Origin: Candidatus Eiseniibacteriota bacterium
Lineage (GTDB): Bacteria; Arandabacterota; Arandabacteria; JAGLYR01
Length of the DNA: 7,105 nt
Reading direction: 5' to 3'
Assembly: GCA_023132135.1 (NCBI GenBank)
Contig: JAGLYR010000305.1
Coordinates: 1 to 7,105, forward strand
Part shown: positions 110-7,105 of the stretch, in pieces
Numbering within the stretch: position 1 is the stretch's first letter
Layout: each line of letters begins with the position of its first letter
Position numbers and translations under genes: made by a program
Notes under the pieces: model-generated
Database searches by the model: none
What the model saw: only the letters and a program-made list of their open reading frames with translations
What the model was told of the DNA's origin: nothing

Positions 110-174
110 TTTACGAAGTGAGCTTTGCTGAACAACTTCCTTGCTTCTCCGCTTGCACGCTTCACTTTCGAGCC

Positions 175-181
175 AAGGAGG
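175..181 (+). promoter_or_regulatory. Shine-Dalgarno site fixing the start at 188
   Basis: AAGGAGG lies six bases before the ATG at 188. The reading frame is open further upstream, to a TTG at 125, but that codon has no comparable site. The protein from 188 also begins directly with a signal peptide, so 188 is the preferred start. Confidence 0.8.
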
Positions 182-187
182 CATCCG

Positions 188-3115
188 ATGAGTACGAGAA
201 TGCCGACCCTGATCATTGCCGCAGCGCTTCTCGCAACAGGCATCATTCCGAACCCGGCCGCGGCCGAAGTCATCCTCAAGAGCTTCGAAGCACCGTATGG
301 GTATCGCTCCTACGGTCTGACCTGGGATGGGCAATACCTGTGGTGCGGGGACGACTACCACGGGGCGATCGCGAAAATTGATACGTCCGACGGTCACATC
401 ATCACCGAGATTCCAGGCGCGTACGAATCCAACCACGGACTCGCGTGGGACGGGACGCACCTCTGGGTTGCCGGCGACTACCACACCGACTACATCTACA
501 AAATCACGACGGCCGGTGCGCGCGTGGATTCGATCCTGAACCCCGGGGGAGACTACTCCGGGGGAATGACCTACGACGGCCGCAACCTGTGGGTGACACG
601 ATACTACCCCAACACGCAGCCGAACCTGTTCAGCGTCGAGCCCACCTCGGGAGCGATCCAGGACACGATTCCTTCCCAGGGTCTTCAGCCGCAAGGCATG
701 GCCTGGGACGGCGAATACCTCTGGAATGTCATGGATGACAACGACGGGGACGAAGAACGAGTCTGGCAGATCCACCCCCTGACGGGCGATACGTTGATGT
801 CCTTCCCTGTCCCCTACACGGGGACTGCGTCGGGTGAATCCCCCCGAGGCCTCGCCTGGGACGGCCAGTACCTTTGGCTGGTTTCTCGATACCCGGGTTC
901 CCCGACTATGAACCATATCTACAAGATCGATCCCTTCGGAGGCGGCACGCCCCAGATCTCTCTCTCCCACTCCGACTACGACTATGGCCACACGATCATC
1001 GGGGATCCCGGGGTCTTCCTTCTCGGGATTTCCAACCTGGGGACCGGCAATCTGGTCGTGGACAGCGTATGTTGCGCGGACCCGGCGTTCTCCTTCCCGG
1101 GTGTCTTCCCCCAGACAGTGGAACCCGACTCGACCTTCTACCTCCCCGTCACCTTCTCCCCCGCAATGTGGGGGCCGGCAGGGACAACACTCACGGTCTA
1201 CAGCAACGATCCGGTGGGCGCTCCGCCGCAGGTAGCTCTGGCTGGATGGGGTGTCTGGCCCGACCAGGAGATCGGCATAAGTGAGAATTCCCACGACTAC
1301 GGCCTAATCCGGGTGAATGCCGACAAGCGTTGGCTGCTGAGGGTCCAGAATGAGGGCGCGCAGCCTCTCATCCTGTATTCGGCCACAACGTCGAGGTCCA
1401 TCTTCAGTGTGCGGAACACACAGTTCCCGGTCCAGATTGACTCGACCGAGGCTTTCGATCTGGACGTCTGGTTCAACCCTCCTTCTCATTCCACGTACGG
1501 CGACACCCTTGAGATCGCGTGCAACGACGCGGATGAGCCCATCCTGCGCGTTCCCCTAGCGGGAACCGGCGACGGCTCAGGACATGGTCCGGGCGCCCTG
1601 TTGTGGAGCTACCAGGTCACGGGTTCCTACTCGGACAAGGTCACCAGCATCCGCGCTCTCCGGGATGTGAACGGTGATGGGTTCGAGGACGTCATCGCAT
1701 GCGCGGAGAACTACCGTACGTACTGCTTCAACGGAAACGGATCGGGAGTGGCCGATACCCTCTGGAGTTTCGACACATCCATCGATCCTTACCGGACCGG
1801 ATCGGTCTACCAGGATCGCGGCATGACGCCCGTCGAGGATCTGGACGGCGACGGGATCCAGGATGTGGTGATCGGCACCGCCGGGGGATCGAGATCGGTC
1901 TTCGCCATCTCCGGGGCCGATGGATCTCAGATCTGGAGCTACGACTCTCACGAGTATGGTGATGGGGGATGGATCTACGAGGTGGCCCCCATCGAGGATG
2001 TAGACGGGGACGGGGTAGAGGACGTCCTGGCAGCGGCCGGAGATGATGGCAGCCTGACAGGACCGAGGCGGGCCTACTGCCTGAGCGGAGCGACAGGGGC
2101 CAAGATCTGGGCGCGGTTCCTGAGTGCCTCGGTCTTCTGCGTACGGGCCATCGACGATGTCAACGGGGACGGGAAGGATGAAGTGGCGGCCGCGACGACG
2201 GACGGTATCCTCTATATCCTTGACGCAGCGGCCGGAACCGTTCTGGACCAGTACGACGCAGGGTCAACCATCTGGACAGTTGCCGCGATCGAGGACATCA
2301 CCGGCGACGGGAAAAAGGACATCGTACTGGGGACCAGCAACGGTTTGGTCCACGCTGTGGATTCATCGGACGGGACAACGGCGTGGCCCGGGACCGTCAA
2401 CGTCGGCAGCATCATCACCGACATCAGCGTCATCCGGGACCAGAACGGCGATAGCGTCGGGGAGATCACGGTGGCCGGCGTGATGTACGATTACTTCGTG
2501 ATCGATGGAGCAGCGGGGAGCATTCTCTGGAGCCGACCCTCCGATCACAAGGCCTTTGCGACCTCCGGCGTGCCCGATCTTTCGGGCAACGGGCTGGAGG
2601 ATGTGATCGGCGGCTCGGGTTACAACGTGAACCGTGTCACCATCATGGAAGGATCCAGCGGCGACACTGTGTGGACCCGCTACACGGCCGGTCCCGTGGA
2701 GACCGTCTCCCCCTTCAAGAACATCGATTGGGATCCATCAGCCGAGGTTCTTGTGGGCACGCGGGCGGGCGAGATTCTCTGCCTCGCAGGCGGCGGGGCG
2801 GTGACGGATGTCGTCGCATCGGAAGATATTGACAGGGCGAGGTCGATTCGCATGCGGATCTATCCCAATCCCTTCAACCCGGTGACGACGATCGCCTTCA
2901 ATGTACCGTTGGAAGGGAAGACGACACTGGCGATTTTCGATGTCCGCGGCCGATGTGTGAAGACGCTCATCGACGGCGCTATCACCGCAGGGGAGCATTC
3001 CGCGGTCTGGGATGGAAGGAACCGGAGCGGAGTTGCATCCGCTCCCGGGGTGTATTTCGCCCGGCTGGAGTCGGCGTCCGAAGTCCTGACCAGGAAGATG
3101 ATTCTGGCGAAGTAG
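188..3115 (+). CDS. Secreted multidomain beta-propeller / Ig-like protein with FlgD-like (type IX-like) C-terminal sorting domain
   Basis: The 975-residue protein begins with a signal peptide (hydrophobic 6-20, likely cleavage after AAA at 26). Residues 43-235 carry five repeats of the form G[LM]xxDGxxLW (at 43, 84, 126, 170, 221), a propeller-like fold. Residues about 255-360 and 362-461 are two tandem Ig-like domains of the choice-of-anchor D/ASPM-SPD-2-Hydin style, each closing with a V/P-x-L-A-G pattern. Residues 471-870 form an FG-GAP/PQQ-like propeller: Ca-binding-type DxDGDG loops start at 493, 551, 604 and 657, with weaker versions at 703, 751, 797 and 845. Residues 885-975 are a FlgD-Ig-like domain with YPNPFNP at 892-898 and a GVYFARL strand, the usual C-terminal sorting signal in FCB bacteria. 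The protein is therefore probably exported and surface-attached or released; the ligand is unknown. It has its own promoter and terminator, so it is probably monocistronic. The architecture is clear, but the biological role is not. Confidence 0.93.
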   Translation: MSTRMPTLIIAAALLATGIIPNPAAAEVILKSFEAPYGYRSYGLTWDGQYLWCGDDYHGAIAKIDTSDGHIITEIPGAYESNHGLAWDGTHLWVAGDYHTDYIYKITTAGARVDSILNPGGDYSGGMTYDGRNLWVTRYYPNTQPNLFSVEPTSGAIQDTIPSQGLQPQGMAWDGEYLWNVMDDNDGDEERVWQIHPLTGDTLMSFPVPYTGTASGESPRGLAWDGQYLWLVSRYPGSPTMNHIYKIDPFGGGTPQISLSHSDYDYGHTIIGDPGVFLLGISNLGTGNLVVDSVCCADPAFSFPGVFPQTVEPDSTFYLPVTFSPAMWGPAGTTLTVYSNDPVGAPPQVALAGWGVWPDQEIGISENSHDYGLIRVNADKRWLLRVQNEGAQPLILYSATTSRSIFSVRNTQFPVQIDSTEAFDLDVWFNPPSHSTYGDTLEIACNDADEPILRVPLAGTGDGSGHGPGALLWSYQVTGSYSDKVTSIRALRDVNGDGFEDVIACAENYRTYCFNGNGSGVADTLWSFDTSIDPYRTGSVYQDRGMTPVEDLDGDGIQDVVIGTAGGSRSVFAISGADGSQIWSYDSHEYGDGGWIYEVAPIEDVDGDGVEDVLAAAGDDGSLTGPRRAYCLSGATGAKIWARFLSASVFCVRAIDDVNGDGKDEVAAATTDGILYILDAAAGTVLDQYDAGSTIWTVAAIEDITGDGKKDIVLGTSNGLVHAVDSSDGTTAWPGTVNVGSIITDISVIRDQNGDSVGEITVAGVMYDYFVIDGAAGSILWSRPSDHKAFATSGVPDLSGNGLEDVIGGSGYNVNRVTIMEGSSGDTVWTRYTAGPVETVSPFKNIDWDPSAEVLVGTRAGEILCLAGGGAVTDVVASEDIDRARSIRMRIYPNPFNPVTTIAFNVPLEGKTTLAIFDVRGRCVKTLIDGAITAGEHSAVWDGRNRSGVASAPGVYFARLESASEVLTRKMILAK

Positions 3116-3198: not shown

Positions 3199-4341
3199 CT
3201 AGAAAGGGCCTCCGACACCATGGCCCGGGCCGTGTCCAAACCTCGGACCATGGTGCGGAAGAAGATTGGTCAGCGCATCGAACATTTCCTGCTGCTCAGA
3301 AGTCAGCAGATCCCGGATCGCAGCAACCGCTTCCTCGTGAATCTCGCCCACTCGATCTTGGGCATCCTCGAATTCAATCTCGCCGCTGCGCACACTCTCT
3401 CTCAACGTCTGGTGTTGCTGCATCGCAGCCTCGGTGATGTCTCTTACCTGCTGAGCCTGCGACTCATCCAGATCCAGGACCCGGGTCAGGAATTCGATCC
3501 GCTGTTCCATCCGCTGTTCGTGACGCGCCTCGCGCCGCTCCATCATCTCGGACTGGCGCTCCGCCCTGTGTTCCTCCATCTGCGCAATCTGCTCGGGCGT
3601 AAGAATGGTCTCCAGCTGCGCCCGGAACGCCTCGCGCATCTCCCGGGCCTGTTCCCGCACGGCCTCGCGATCACAGTCCCCACTCCGGCACTGCTCGCGG
3701 AAATCCCGCATCCGCTCGTGCATGGCCTCGGCTGCTTCCCGGACCTGCGCGCTCTGTTCTTCTGTCAGATTCAGATCACCGGCCATTTGCTCAAACCGCT
3801 CGCCGCAACTCTCCCCCGGACCGAAGTGACGCCCGTGGAATCCTCCGCGCCCGCCGCGCCCGCGATCCCGACCGCCTCTCCCAAGGCCTGCCATTTCGCT
3901 CCGATGGGCCTCATGACGCTCGGCCAGAAACCCCGTGAACTGCACGAACTGCCGGGGTCCCAGGATGTCCGCGCACTCCCCGATAAACGCCAGGAACGGC
4001 CGCTCGTGATCGGGCATGTCCCCCGCTTCACCAAAGCGGGCCCGCTGACCGTGGGCGCCATGACGGCCCCGTTCTCCGCGCTGCGGACGGTCCGCCACTG
4101 CGGCAGCAAACGTCTCGCGAAAGCGCCCCGCGGCGGCCTCCATTGCAACTCGCTGCTCGGGAGTCAGCTCCACGGCCGATTCGATATCGGAGACACTGGG
4201 CATCCACGCCGTGTCGCTGGTCGACTGCGGCGATGTCAGGCCCATCATCCCCGGATCGGTCTCGTTTTCACTACACCCCGCGCCAATCATGAGCAGACCT
4301 GCGATTGCCAGAGCACTCACCAACAACGTTCTTGCCTTCAT
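3199..4341 (-). CDS. Spy/CpxP-like (LTxxQ) lipoprotein with RG-rich linker and His-rich tail
   Basis: The 380-residue protein starts at the ATG at 4341, where AGGAGG sits six bases upstream. A codon six triplets earlier (4359) lies within that site and is unlikely to be used. Residues 1-22 are a lipoprotein signal peptide ending GAG-C23, an atypical lipobox; Ser24 at +2 would favour the outer membrane by the proteobacterial rule. Helical LTxxQ-type motifs occur at 59 (LTPEQ), 192 (LTEEQ), 247 (LTPEQ), 291 (LDESQ) and 346 (LTSEQ), with a degenerate LGPRQ at 127. Spy, CpxP and ZraP carry such motifs and act as periplasmic chaperones or metal-stress sensors, but are usually about 140-170 residues, so this looks like an internally multiplied version. 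Residues 152-176 are rich in Arg/Gly, and 363-375 contain five His, which may bind metal (inference). No two-component system or metal pump is adjacent. The exact function is unproven. Confidence 0.85.
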   Translation of the reverse strand: MKARTLLVSALAIAGLLMIGAGCSENETDPGMMGLTSPQSTSDTAWMPSVSDIESAVELTPEQRVAMEAAAGRFRETFAAAVADRPQRGERGRHGAHGQRARFGEAGDMPDHERPFLAFIGECADILGPRQFVQFTGFLAERHEAHRSEMAGLGRGGRDRGRGGRGGFHGRHFGPGESCGERFEQMAGDLNLTEEQSAQVREAAEAMHERMRDFREQCRSGDCDREAVREQAREMREAFRAQLETILTPEQIAQMEEHRAERQSEMMERREARHEQRMEQRIEFLTRVLDLDESQAQQVRDITEAAMQQHQTLRESVRSGEIEFEDAQDRVGEIHEEAVAAIRDLLTSEQQEMFDALTNLLPHHGPRFGHGPGHGVGGPF

Positions 4342-4346
4342 CTTCG

Positions 4347-4355
4347 TCCTCCTTT
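4347..4355 (-). promoter_or_regulatory. Shine-Dalgarno site fixing the start at 4341
   Basis: On the minus strand this reads AAAGGAGGA, with its AGGAGG core six bases before the ATG at 4341. An in-frame ATG at 4359 overlaps the site itself, so the downstream ATG is chosen. Confidence 0.8.
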
Positions 4356-4389
4356 GCAAGAGCCTGTTTCCTTCCCGCCTTCACTCCTA

Positions 4390-4453: not shown

Positions 4454-4481
4454 TTCCGGGGACACGCGGGCTGTTGAAAAA
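4454..4481 (+). repeat. Left arm of an imperfect inverted repeat enclosing the beta-helix gene
   Basis: The arm contains TTCCGGGGACA (4454-4464), GGG (4468-4470) and CTGTTGAAAAA (4471-4481). The same blocks in the same order occur on the minus strand at 6107-6082 (TTCGGGACA, GGG, CTGTTGAAAAA), with only one- or two-base differences in spacing. The 11-base inner block is identical. CTGTTGAAAAA-type sequences are, from memory, common at transposon ends and in dispersed repeats near transposases. It lies between the lipoprotein promoter and the end of the beta-helix gene. Confidence 0.6.
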
Positions 4482-4561: not shown

Positions 4562-5659
4562 TCATGGCGTCTTCTGCCGGTATAGTGCCTTCACTCCTCC
4601 CCAGGTTGTGCGATTGGCTGCGGAACTATCACACCCTGTGTCGCGGGCACCGATCAGTCCGCAGGGATGCCCACTCGGATGGTGGTCGGGTGCACACGGT
4701 GAGTCGGATTGTATCCCCAAATCTCCGTTCTCTGGATCGCAGAAATGGGGATCCGCAGAGATATTGCCGTTGATACCCAGCTGACCGCTGATGCATCCGA
4801 CCCAATCACCGCCCGCGTTCCCGAAAACGTCGCAGCATTCCAGAGTCACCTGGGAGCTTCCGTCTCTGCACAGGATGGCTTCTCCATGGCTGCTGAACGC
4901 TATGATAGTGTTTTGGACAAGAAGGGTATTGTCGGAGGCCAGGTAAATAGCCGCGCCTCCAAGGACTCCGGTATTCGCATAGAAAGTGCAATTCGTAAGC
5001 ACCGACGAGGAGCGGTTAAGTGTCAAGCCCCCACCAGGATCCCAGGACCAGTTGTCGGAGAATACGCACCCTACAAGTGTTGCCGAGGATGAGGAGCAAT
5101 ACATTGCACCTTCGCCGTTGTCGATGAAATTGCAGTTGACAAGAGTGGCCGGGGAGTCGCTGCAGTACAGTCCTCCCGGACCGAAATCTCCGTAGTTGTC
5201 GATGAAACTGCAGTCTATCAATGTGGGGTAAGAATCTAAACAAGCCATTCCGCCGCCATGGTAGGCTTGGTTCGAACGTAGCATGCAACTCTCAAGCGTG
5301 AGTGTGGATGAGAAGCATCCCACGCCACCCCCCCCGTCGTGGAAGCCTCCCATGATTGTGAAACCCTCAACGACCGTCATGATATCCAGGTTCTGACCGA
5401 CGAATACCCTGCCTTGCCACTCTGCATCAATAGTGACGCAGCTGGCGTCTCCGGTATCGCTCTGAAGATGAACCCCGGATTTCAGGACGATATCATGTTC
5501 GTGGTATGTCCCACACGCCACCGACACCGTGTCCCCGGCACTCGCTGAGTCGATACCCGCCTGAACCGTGGGGCATTGCGATGGCACTTGCCAGACGGTG
5601 GCGTAGCTACACCAAGGGATCAGAAGACCGTATGCAGTCAGAATGACCAGTCTCTTCAT
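4562..5659 (-). CDS. Secreted right-handed parallel beta-helix repeat protein
   Basis: The 365-residue protein starts at the ATG at 5659, six bases after GAGG; a TTG four codons upstream is a weaker alternative. Residues 1-20 are a signal peptide (KR, hydrophobic core, likely cleavage after SYA). Residues 30-67 (PTVQAGIDSASAGDTVxV..GTY) are the standard opening of pectate-lyase-like/DUF1565 beta-helix proteins. Successive coils of about 22-26 residues follow the pattern TLxxCxFxxN....GGxxYC, with stacked Cys at 125, 150, 176, 198 and 224 and a matching Asn at 250. Residues 318-343 (SPCAPDHHP...CGLIGARDTGC) are the usual closing segment. The family includes polysaccharide-active enzymes and adhesins, but no catalytic residues can be identified. 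There is no FlgD/YPNPFNP domain; a short tail, TTWGGVKALYR at 351-361, ends the protein. Base composition is visibly less GC-rich than the neighbouring genes, and the gene lies between inverted repeats, so it may have been acquired or moved. Confidence 0.88.
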   Translation of the reverse strand: MKRLVILTAYGLLIPWCSYATVWQVPSQCPTVQAGIDSASAGDTVSVACGTYHEHDIVLKSGVHLQSDTGDASCVTIDAEWQGRVFVGQNLDIMTVVEGFTIMGGFHDGGGGVGCFSSTLTLESCMLRSNQAYHGGGMACLDSYPTLIDCSFIDNYGDFGPGGLYCSDSPATLVNCNFIDNGEGAMYCSSSSATLVGCVFSDNWSWDPGGGLTLNRSSSVLTNCTFYANTGVLGGAAIYLASDNTLLVQNTIIAFSSHGEAILCRDGSSQVTLECCDVFGNAGGDWVGCISGQLGINGNISADPHFCDPENGDLGIQSDSPCAPDHHPSGHPCGLIGARDTGCDSSAANRTTWGGVKALYRQKTP

Positions 5660-5665
5660 GATAAT

Positions 5666-5669
5666 CCTC
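5666..5669 (-). promoter_or_regulatory. Short Shine-Dalgarno site for the beta-helix gene
   Basis: The minus strand reads GAGG six bases before the ATG at 5659. The frame also opens at a TTG at 5671 that overlaps this site, so the ATG is preferred. No convincing promoter was found further upstream, where transposase scraps begin. Confidence 0.6.
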
Positions 5670-5804
5670 AATTCGGCCGAATGCCTCAGAAGCTTGATAA
5701 TCAGCGAGAATCTCCTGCCCTATCTAATCATGACCATCTTCCTCGTTGTGCTGAACGCCGACCCATCGATTCTACGGTCACCCAACCACCAAGGGTACCG
5801 GGAA

Positions 5805-5906: not shown

Positions 5907-6089
5907 CTACTTGCTTGACTTTGGCTTAGGGCCTCGCCTCTGTGGGCGAAGCGGCCTTCCAAGCAGCGCCTCCAACCGGTCGACGAATTCCTTCCCTCCG
6001 CAGGGCCAGCCGATGTGTGTGTGCCGACGAATGGTCTTGAGCATCTGCTTGTCCGGAACGGGAAGGGTGCCAACGAAGGGGTTTTTCAA
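5907..6089 (-). pseudogene. C-terminal remnant of an IS200/RAYT-like (Y1_Tnp) transposase
   Basis: The 60-residue reading frame contains IRRHTHIGWPCGGKEFVDRL at 20-39, followed by EALLGRPLRP and a basic RRGPKPK tail. This matches the usual C-terminus of REP-associated tyrosine transposases (IRRHTRTGRPLGxxxFxxRLExLxGRxLRPxxxGPxxK). Those proteins normally have about 200-250 residues with an HUH motif and a catalytic Tyr, none of which is present. Upstream, an in-frame TAG at 6098-6096 and the inverted-repeat arm replace the rest of the gene, so it is truncated exactly at the repeat. It starts only with a TTG and has no ribosome binding site, so it is probably not expressed. Confidence 0.65.
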
Positions 6090-6107
6090 CAGACCCTATG
6101 TCCCGAA
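6082..6107 (-). repeat. Right arm of the imperfect inverted repeat
   Basis: Read on the minus strand, 6107-6099 is TTCGGGACA, 6096-6094 is GGG and 6092-6082 is CTGTTGAAAAA. These match the left arm at 4454-4481 block by block. The RAYT-like remnant begins inside this arm. The two arms face each other across about 1.6 kb. Confidence 0.6.
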
Positions 6108-6183: not shown

Positions 6184-6211
6184 TTGACATACAAACGGAT
6201 TTCGTTACAAT
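6184..6211 (+). promoter_or_regulatory. Sigma70-type promoter of the nucleotidyltransferase gene
   Basis: A perfect TTGACA at 6184-6189 is followed after 16 bases by TACAAT at 6206-6211 (five of six matches to TATAAT). Transcription would start near 6218 with a leader of about 65 bases before the GTG at 6283. The -10 box lies inside the first palindrome (6200-6218), so a protein bound there should block RNA polymerase. Confidence 0.65.
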
Positions 6212-6218
6212 AACGAAA
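6200..6218. promoter_or_regulatory. Palindromic operator 1 over the -10 box
   Basis: TTTCGTTA-CAA-TAACGAAA is a perfect palindrome with two 8-base arms and a 3-base centre. It covers the -10 box and the predicted transcription start. Its close copy at 6239-6257 makes chance unlikely. The likely role is autorepression by a dimeric DNA-binding protein; the regulator may be the protein encoded just downstream (inference). Confidence 0.7.
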
Positions 6219-6238
6219 CGGGGTGAAAATCGGGCTAA

Positions 6239-6257
6239 TTTCGTTATCATAACGAAC
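6239..6257. promoter_or_regulatory. Palindromic operator 2 in the leader
   Basis: TTTCGTTA-TCA-TAACGAAC repeats operator 1 with one arm mismatch at the last base and a different 3-base centre. It starts 39 bases after operator 1, which is between 3.5 and 4 helical turns. It lies between the predicted transcription start and the gene, so bound protein could act as a roadblock or pair with operator 1. The RNA copy could also form a 7-bp hairpin. Confidence 0.7.
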
Positions 6258-6282
6258 CGATGGGAGGGGTGCGGTCGATTCG

Positions 6283-6870
6283 GTGAGAAGATTGAGCCAA
6301 AAGCGGAACCTTAGGAGGATCGTCAGAGCGCTGGCTTCGGTGGCCGGGGTCAAGGCGGTCTTTCTGTACGGAAGCTTCGCCAGGGGGGATTTCGGTCCGC
6401 GATCGGATCTCGATCTCTTCATCATCACAGACAAGCGCGGGGTGCGCGAGGAAGTCCTGGAGATTCTGGCAGGACTCGATCTGGACAAGTCCATTCAACC
6501 GACCGTCCGCTCAGAAGCCGAGCTCAGGCACACCGACTCCGGTCTTCTCCAGAATATCTTCAAAGAAGGTCTGGTTCTCTACCTCCGTGAGCCGATGGAG
6601 ATTCCCGTTGATTCGCTGCTGAGCCTCAAGCCGTACTCGATCTTCACCTTCGAGCTACCGCGCCTGGATCAGAGGATGAAAGCGAAGTTCAATCGGGACA
6701 TGTACGAGAGAACAAAGGGCAAGTACCAATACAGTGGTCTGCTCGGAGAACTCGGAGGAGAGAAGCTATCCAGAGGAAGTGTGATCGTGCCTTTCGATGG
6801 CAGGGAGAAACTTCTCAGGCTTCTCAAGAAGTACGATGCTGAATTCGACGAGGTCAGGGTCTGGCGGTGA
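6283..6870 (+). CDS. Nucleotidyltransferase-fold (MNT-like) protein with unrecognised C-terminal domain
   Basis: The 195-residue protein uses a GTG start; no other start exists between it and the in-frame stop at 6250. A GGGAGGGG at 6262-6269 is unusually far upstream (13 bases). Residues 24-48 hold the pol-beta/MNT signature: LYGSFARGDFG with Gly30-Ser31, then SDLDLFI with Asp42 and Asp44, the metal-binding pair. The third acidic residue expected on a later strand is not obvious, with IQPTV at 71-75 in that region, so catalysis is uncertain. QNIFKEG at 90-96 is typical of this group. Residues about 115-195 are basic and contain FNRDMYERTKGKYQYSGLLG at 136-155 and RGSVIVP at 164-170; I do not recognise this domain and suggest DNA binding only as inference. 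MNT proteins commonly pair with HEPN toxins as antitoxins that AMPylate them, but no HEPN gene follows. Two matching palindromes in the promoter suggest tight autoregulation. Confidence 0.85.
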   Translation: MRRLSQKRNLRRIVRALASVAGVKAVFLYGSFARGDFGPRSDLDLFIITDKRGVREEVLEILAGLDLDKSIQPTVRSEAELRHTDSGLLQNIFKEGLVLYLREPMEIPVDSLLSLKPYSIFTFELPRLDQRMKAKFNRDMYERTKGKYQYSGLLGELGGEKLSRGSVIVPFDGREKLLRLLKKYDAEFDEVRVWR

Positions 6871-6933: not shown

Positions 6934-6966
6934 CATATGCACGCTGTCCCAGCAAGGTCAAGATGG

Positions 6967-6986
6967 ATCCCCGCGTGCGCGGGGAT
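6967..6986. repeat. REP-like palindrome
   Basis: ATCCCCGCG-TG-CGCGGGGAT is a perfect palindrome with two 9-base arms, set in the context AAGATGG...GACGA. It belongs to the widespread dispersed type seen as GATTCCCGCxxxCGCGGGAATGACG in many bacterial genomes, which in this variant has C/G in place of T/A. Such elements are often multicopy and are sometimes mobilised by RAYT transposases. The region 6871-7105 otherwise holds no gene; it ends in a pyrimidine-rich tract from 7070 on. Confidence 0.65.
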
Positions 6987-7105
6987 GACGATTGGCTTTG
7001 CCCCGCGCCGCTTTCGACGGTGGAGCGGAGCGGAACCGTGGGACAAGAAGACGACCCCATACCAATATGATCTTCCCTTCCTCTTCTTCCTTCCCCCCGG
7101 GTTCC

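Follow-up and report, generated by a model that had tools for sequence, protein, structure and literature searches.

Introduction

The closest described relatives of the locus analyzed here are HEPN-MNT modules. The SO_3165/SO_3166 pair of Shewanella oneidensis corresponds to MntA/HepT, a type VII toxin-antitoxin (TA) system (PMC4621449, PMC7641770). SO_3165 is an MNT antitoxin without a recognized DNA-binding domain; it binds to its own promoter and represses it, and this promoter contains two dissimilar palindromes (PMC4621449). SO_3165 is the only experimental precedent for MNT autorepression that we found. An HEPN-MNT pair of Legionella pneumophila is likewise a type VII TA system (PMC11586414). 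According to that article, the canonical RX4HXY motif is present in class I HEPN proteins only; its text contains the word "promoter" once and the terms "operator" and "palindrom" zero times. Here, we compare these systems with a locus from a Candidatus Eiseniibacteriota bacterium. The entire contig of 7,105 nucleotides is referred to as the window.

Results

Two identical palindromes surround the predicted transcription start of an MNT gene. Operator 1 (positions 6201 to 6217, TTCGTTA-CAA-TAACGAA) and operator 2 (positions 6240 to 6256, TTCGTTA-TCA-TAACGAA), neither of which is assigned to a strand, share the 7+3+7 core TTCGTTA-N3-TAACGAA and lie 39 bp apart from start to start. In its extended form, operator 1 reads TTTCGTTACAATAACGAAA (6200 to 6218, no mismatch) and operator 2 reads TTTCGTTATCATAACGAAC (6239 to 6257, one mismatch at the outermost base). 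The number of such palindromes expected by chance was 0 (200 dinucleotide shuffles), and none of 5,000 shuffles equaled the score of the operator region in a repeat-and-palindrome test. Furthermore, the 3.4-Mb genome contains no exact copies other than these two. On the plus strand, a TTGACA -35 box (6184 to 6189) and a TACAAT -10 box (6206 to 6211), spaced by 16 nt, match 11 of the 12 sigma-70 positions, and the -10 box is located inside operator 1. The predicted transcription start (~6217 to 6219) coincides with the end of operator 1, whereas operator 2 is situated in the predicted leader, ~20 to 40 nt past this start and only 26 bp from the start of the nucleotidyltransferase gene. An initial annotation of this DNA had described two matching palindromes at this distance that flank the predicted start, the first containing the -10 box of a promoter with a perfect -35 box, and each of these points was reproduced. 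The arrangement is that of autorepressing TA loci, in which palindromic sites overlap the promoter core and are conserved along with the gene.

The gene (positions 6283 to 6870, plus strand, GTG start) encodes an MNT-type nucleotidyltransferase of 195 amino acids, as indicated by Pfam (Polbeta, 2.5e-12; NTP_transf_2, 9e-11), by its fold, and by an intact GSX10DXD active-site motif at residues 30 to 44, GSFARGDFGPRSDLD (GS, 10 residues, DLD). The NCBIfam equivalog model for the MntA antitoxin gave 33.9 bits, below its cutoff of 60. In the AF2 model, the N-terminal nucleotidyltransferase domain (residues 1 to 103; positions 6283 to 6591) is MntA-like and superimposes on 8xeh_E with an rmsd of 2.1 over 99 aligned residues. 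It is followed by a C-terminal domain of ~80 residues (residues 115 to 195; positions 6625 to 6867) that is predicted to be ferredoxin-like with a basic helix at residues 130 to 140. This domain matched no Pfam family, and its structural matches were weak (Z of ~7, rmsd of ~2), a level that common arrangements also reach, and do not point to a function. It was found 10 times in 386 genomes, always in an open frame of MNT size. The initial annotation had noted the lack of a familiar helix-turn-helix, and we agree, since neither a winged helix nor a helix-turn-helix was detected by Pfam, by NCBIfam, or in the structure model. The C-terminal domain, which has no recognized DNA-binding fold, is the candidate reader of the operators, although SO_3165 binds DNA without such a domain and the DNA-reading part therefore need not reside there. 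No homologues of the MNT protein were found in plasmids, and its viral relatives amounted to a single 32-residue match.

When 386 whole genomes were searched for the paired-site pattern, it was identified at 5 loci in 4 genomes, all directly upstream of a member of this MNT family, whereas the reversed pattern, used as a control, produced 0 matches. These 5 loci are those of the five closest full-length MNT homologues, which are 46 to 52% identical and belong to three phylum-level groups. Such homologues are rare, with 52% identity in genomes G190 and G045 and 46 to 48% in the two copies of G224. Two further genomes of the G224 group also carry the pair, resulting in a total of seven loci. The answer to the question raised by the initial annotation, whether the palindrome accompanies homologues of the protein, is thus positive for all seven close homologous loci, and the pair occurs nowhere else in the 386 genomes.

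The spacing is 39 bp in the window and the G224-group loci and 40 bp in G190 and G045. The arms of operator 1 are identical at 14 of 14 positions to the site in other phylum-level groups; changes elsewhere comprise one arm position of site 2 in G190 and G045 (TATCGAA) and the outer bases of site 1 in three G224-group loci. When group representatives were compared, 13 to 14 of the 14 arm positions were identical, as opposed to 27 to 55% of the spacer and 12 to 28% of the 40 bp upstream, indicating that the sites have been retained as the sequence around them diverged. Read by eye, every group has a sigma-70-like promoter that overlaps an operator or lies immediately next to it, at a position relative to the pair that varies: in G224, the -35 box lies between the sites and the -10 box in site 2, and in G190 and G045 site 1 is immediately preceded by a TTGACT-TATAAT promoter. 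The sites thus appear to track the gene rather than one fixed promoter. Flanking genes vary among the loci, and the HEPN-like and MNT genes are all that they share. Taken together, these sequence comparisons identify the operator pair as a conserved element.

Five distant MNT loci that encode the same C-terminal domain (G143 C11, C21, and C55; G045 C64; G372) do not have the exact pair. Inspection of the upstream regions of the first four for palindromes revealed a diverged pair only at G143 C55, whose MNT protein is 33% identical. There, TTCGTAA-N7-TTACGAA is positioned over a TATAAT box and a second TTCGTAA half-site lies 40 bp downstream, an arrangement that 6 of 5,000 shuffles equaled. Compared with the exact pair, the outer TTCG...CGAA and the spacing are kept and the inner bases are changed, as would be expected if site and protein had co-evolved, although this is a single case. 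A scan of viral contigs for the paired pattern matched two, L064 and L065, and both were discarded. The match in L065 is coincidental, as the palindromes are part of a reading frame in which they encode a RYNNE peptide that recurs after 13 codons (39 bp). The L064 contig is short, has a poor second site, and does not contain a related protein.

In every relative, the operators are followed by a two-gene operon consisting of an HEPN-like gene (115 to 130 amino acids) and the MNT gene, whose start either overlaps the HEPN-like gene or directly adjoins it. These HEPN-like partners have no Pfam match; the model of a partner (pLDDT of 88) matches HEPN structures, namely, 2hsb (Z of 15.4) and HepT (Z of ~9.5). 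The RX4-6H motif is absent from 7 of the 8 aligned partners, with a nonconserved match in the remaining one, and partners of the close group conserve HxxxH and YDGxNG. Given the lack of RX4-6H, their toxicity is putative, and in the class scheme of PMC11586414 they fit the class II side. No partner homologues were found in plasmids or phages. A second HEPN-like subfamily (HLDTHVGLPR ... GRWYGSxxNG), for which the partners scanned had no Pfam family either, is present in L055, L056, L054, and L077, next to MNT proteins with the same C-terminal domain. In L056, two TTTGTCAC-rich palindromes ~41 bp apart (positions 2119 to 2179) are found just downstream of a distant HEPN-MNT pair.

The HEPN-MNT operon, present in all intact relatives, is lacking in the window, and no HEPN homologue was detected in the window or in the rest of its genome. 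Positions 6273 to 6314 (plus strand), overlapping the MNT start, probably preserve an out-of-frame segment from the 3' end of the lost gene. In the HEPN frame, this segment reads GRFGEKIEPKAEP followed by a stop codon, compared with ERFNEKIEPEINI and KRFGEKINEENT, each followed by a stop, in G045 and G224, respectively; the position of the stop is the same as in G045. The p value of this resemblance was ~7e-4 when the MNT protein was held fixed and the rest shuffled, and the sequence probably represents the scar of an HEPN gene deletion. An ATGGGAG at position 6260 resembles the start of the partner gene, but we do not count it as an HEPN start, as it follows operator 2 by only 3 nt and has no ribosome site.

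As for the surroundings, a 23-nt inverted repeat (83%; GGGACACGCGGGCTGTTGAAAAA at 4459 to 4481 and TTTTTCAACAGACCCTATGTCCC at 6082 to 6104) flanks a 1.6-kb segment with the gene of a right-handed beta-helix protein (4562 to 5671, minus strand); it ends ~80 bp before the MNT promoter and is perhaps an element boundary. A short open reading frame (5907 to 6089, minus strand) ending in LRPQRRGPKPKSSK had no Pfam match. We take it to resemble the C-terminal end of a REP-associated transposase. The segment from 6955 to 6990, GGATCCCCGCGTGCGCGGGGATGACG, is palindromic and like dispersed genomic repeats (VIPAHAGIH when read on the minus strand). Two further genes, at 125 to 3115 and 3199 to 4359 (minus strand), are ordinary and encode a large FG-GAP/beta-propeller protein whose C-terminal tail is of the FlgD-like/Por secretion type, as well as a Spy-like protein of the LTXXQ family.

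Discussion

We consider it probable that the two palindromes serve as a pair of operators for an HEPN-MNT (type VII-like) module under autoregulation, of which the window would hold an MNT-only derivative that still represses itself. That the sites are autoregulatory operators of a TA-like gene is well supported by the comparative data, because all seven close loci carry the pair and it was encountered nowhere else in the 386 genomes. DNA binding by MNT, repression, cooperativity, and an antitoxin role are inferred. In intact relatives, a single transcript would encode the HEPN-fold protein and then the overlapping nucleotidyltransferase. The latter is the best candidate for reading the sites, as it is the sole component present at all loci, including the window. 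It may bind the two sites 39 to 40 bp apart, probably via its extra C-terminal domain, and might do so as an oligomer or together with HEPN acting as a co-repressor; one dimer per site could bridge both, as 39 bp correspond to ~3.7 helical turns. Bound MNT would block RNA polymerase at the promoter embedded in the sites. With the HEPN-like gene deleted, the operators of the window would directly control a solitary nucleotidyltransferase, an orphan antitoxin-type gene that most likely still represses itself. TA-like autoregulation, as proposed in the initial annotation, is thus upheld by the exclusive pairing of the operators with MNT loci, but a one-gene unit is not, given that an HEPN-like gene precedes MNT in the relatives. 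Nor does the description as a compact, undescribed unit apply, because the locus is probably what is left of a two-gene HEPN-MNT module and because binding of an MNT protein to its own palindromic promoter has been published for SO_3165 (PMC4621449).

Among the other explanations, the one that survives best is that DNA is bound by the HEPN-like protein or solely by its complex with MNT, in which case the operators of the window would be unread relics and MNT would be constitutive after the loss of HEPN. The HEPN-like gene adjoins the operators in all intact relatives, a DNA-binding antitoxin with an HEPN domain is mentioned in PMC4621449 (cited there to Dy et al. 2014), and the still recognizable 3' end makes the deletion look recent, so that unselected operators could remain intact. 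We nevertheless judge this unlikely, since the operators of the window retain perfect arms and the exact 39-bp register in a genome without HEPN, and the known HEPN-MNT autorepressor is the MNT protein (PMC4621449). Less likely still is that the organism has the usual two-gene operon and that the loss of HEPN is a misassembly. In principle, an assembly error could account for the deletion, as the window is a 7.1-kb contig of a fragmented, 345-contig assembly; however, a single contig spans the junction, no boundary sequence appeared to be duplicated, and no HEPN start is in frame with the remnant.

Alternatively, a trans-acting regulator encoded elsewhere might recognize the sites and control the module. 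No known DNA-binding domain was recognized in the MNT protein, whose link to the sites is positional only. We regard such a regulator as quite improbable, because just two exact sites in a genome would be unusual for a general regulator, and the pair travels with the module across three phylum-level groups with differing neighbors and is absent elsewhere in 386 genomes. Control at the RNA level, with the palindromes acting as hairpins of the leader mRNA, is hardly credible: a hairpin with a 7-bp stem and a loop of 3 nt is conceivable for each site, and operator 2 falls in the predicted leader, but the best promoter of the G224 group lies between the sites and would leave the conserved site 1 untranscribed, and the arms recur at fixed spacing on either side of promoters.

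Returning to autorepression by MNT, a broader proposal can be made tentatively, and we hold it with less than even confidence: these loci may represent a class of HEPN-MNT modules that has spread horizontally and whose MNT acts as a sequence-specific repressor, using a previously undescribed ferredoxin-like C-terminal domain on two palindromes 39 to 40 bp apart; in the window, MNT would have shed HEPN to become a free-standing autorepressor. The family offers a defined, conserved operator pair together with a candidate DNA-binding domain that is absent from Pfam. The locus of the window would be a naturally occurring "toxin-less" derivative, in which autoregulation is uncoupled from neutralization of the partner, and it is a tractable case in Escherichia coli, requiring just one short promoter and a single small protein.

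The locus belongs to a known kind of system, HEPN-MNT, of which it is a variant characterized by a C-terminal domain without Pfam entry, identical paired operators, and a lost partner. We know of no comparable operator pair for HI0073/HI0074 and class II HEPN-MNT modules. The "class II" pair HI0073/HI0074 is similar in its MNT fold (1no5, Z of 10.6), but its MNT is minimal and does not have the C-terminal domain. The relatives of the window share with SO_3165/SO_3166 an MNT nucleotidyltransferase and an HEPN-fold partner in one operon. However, SO_3165 has 139 amino acids (PDB 5yep) and precedes HEPN, whereas the MNT of these loci follows it, adds the C-terminal domain of ~80 amino acids, and is accompanied by two identical palindromes 39 bp apart; the HEPN-like partner of the relatives is devoid of RX4-6H, and in the window it is gone. 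The L. pneumophila system (PDB 8xeh, PMC11586414) provided the best structural match to the N-terminal domain (Z of 13.0), but its HEPN protein contains RX4HXY and its MNT has 108 amino acids. In contig L004 (positions 230 to 1214), an MNT domain behind a predicted winged-helix-like N terminus is followed by an HEPN-like open reading frame. This fusion differs from the window in that the DNA-binding-like region, recognized by eye, is N-terminal and no such palindrome pair is present, yet the attachment of such a region to the MNT protein of an MNT/HEPN pair is possibly the same solution to autoregulation.
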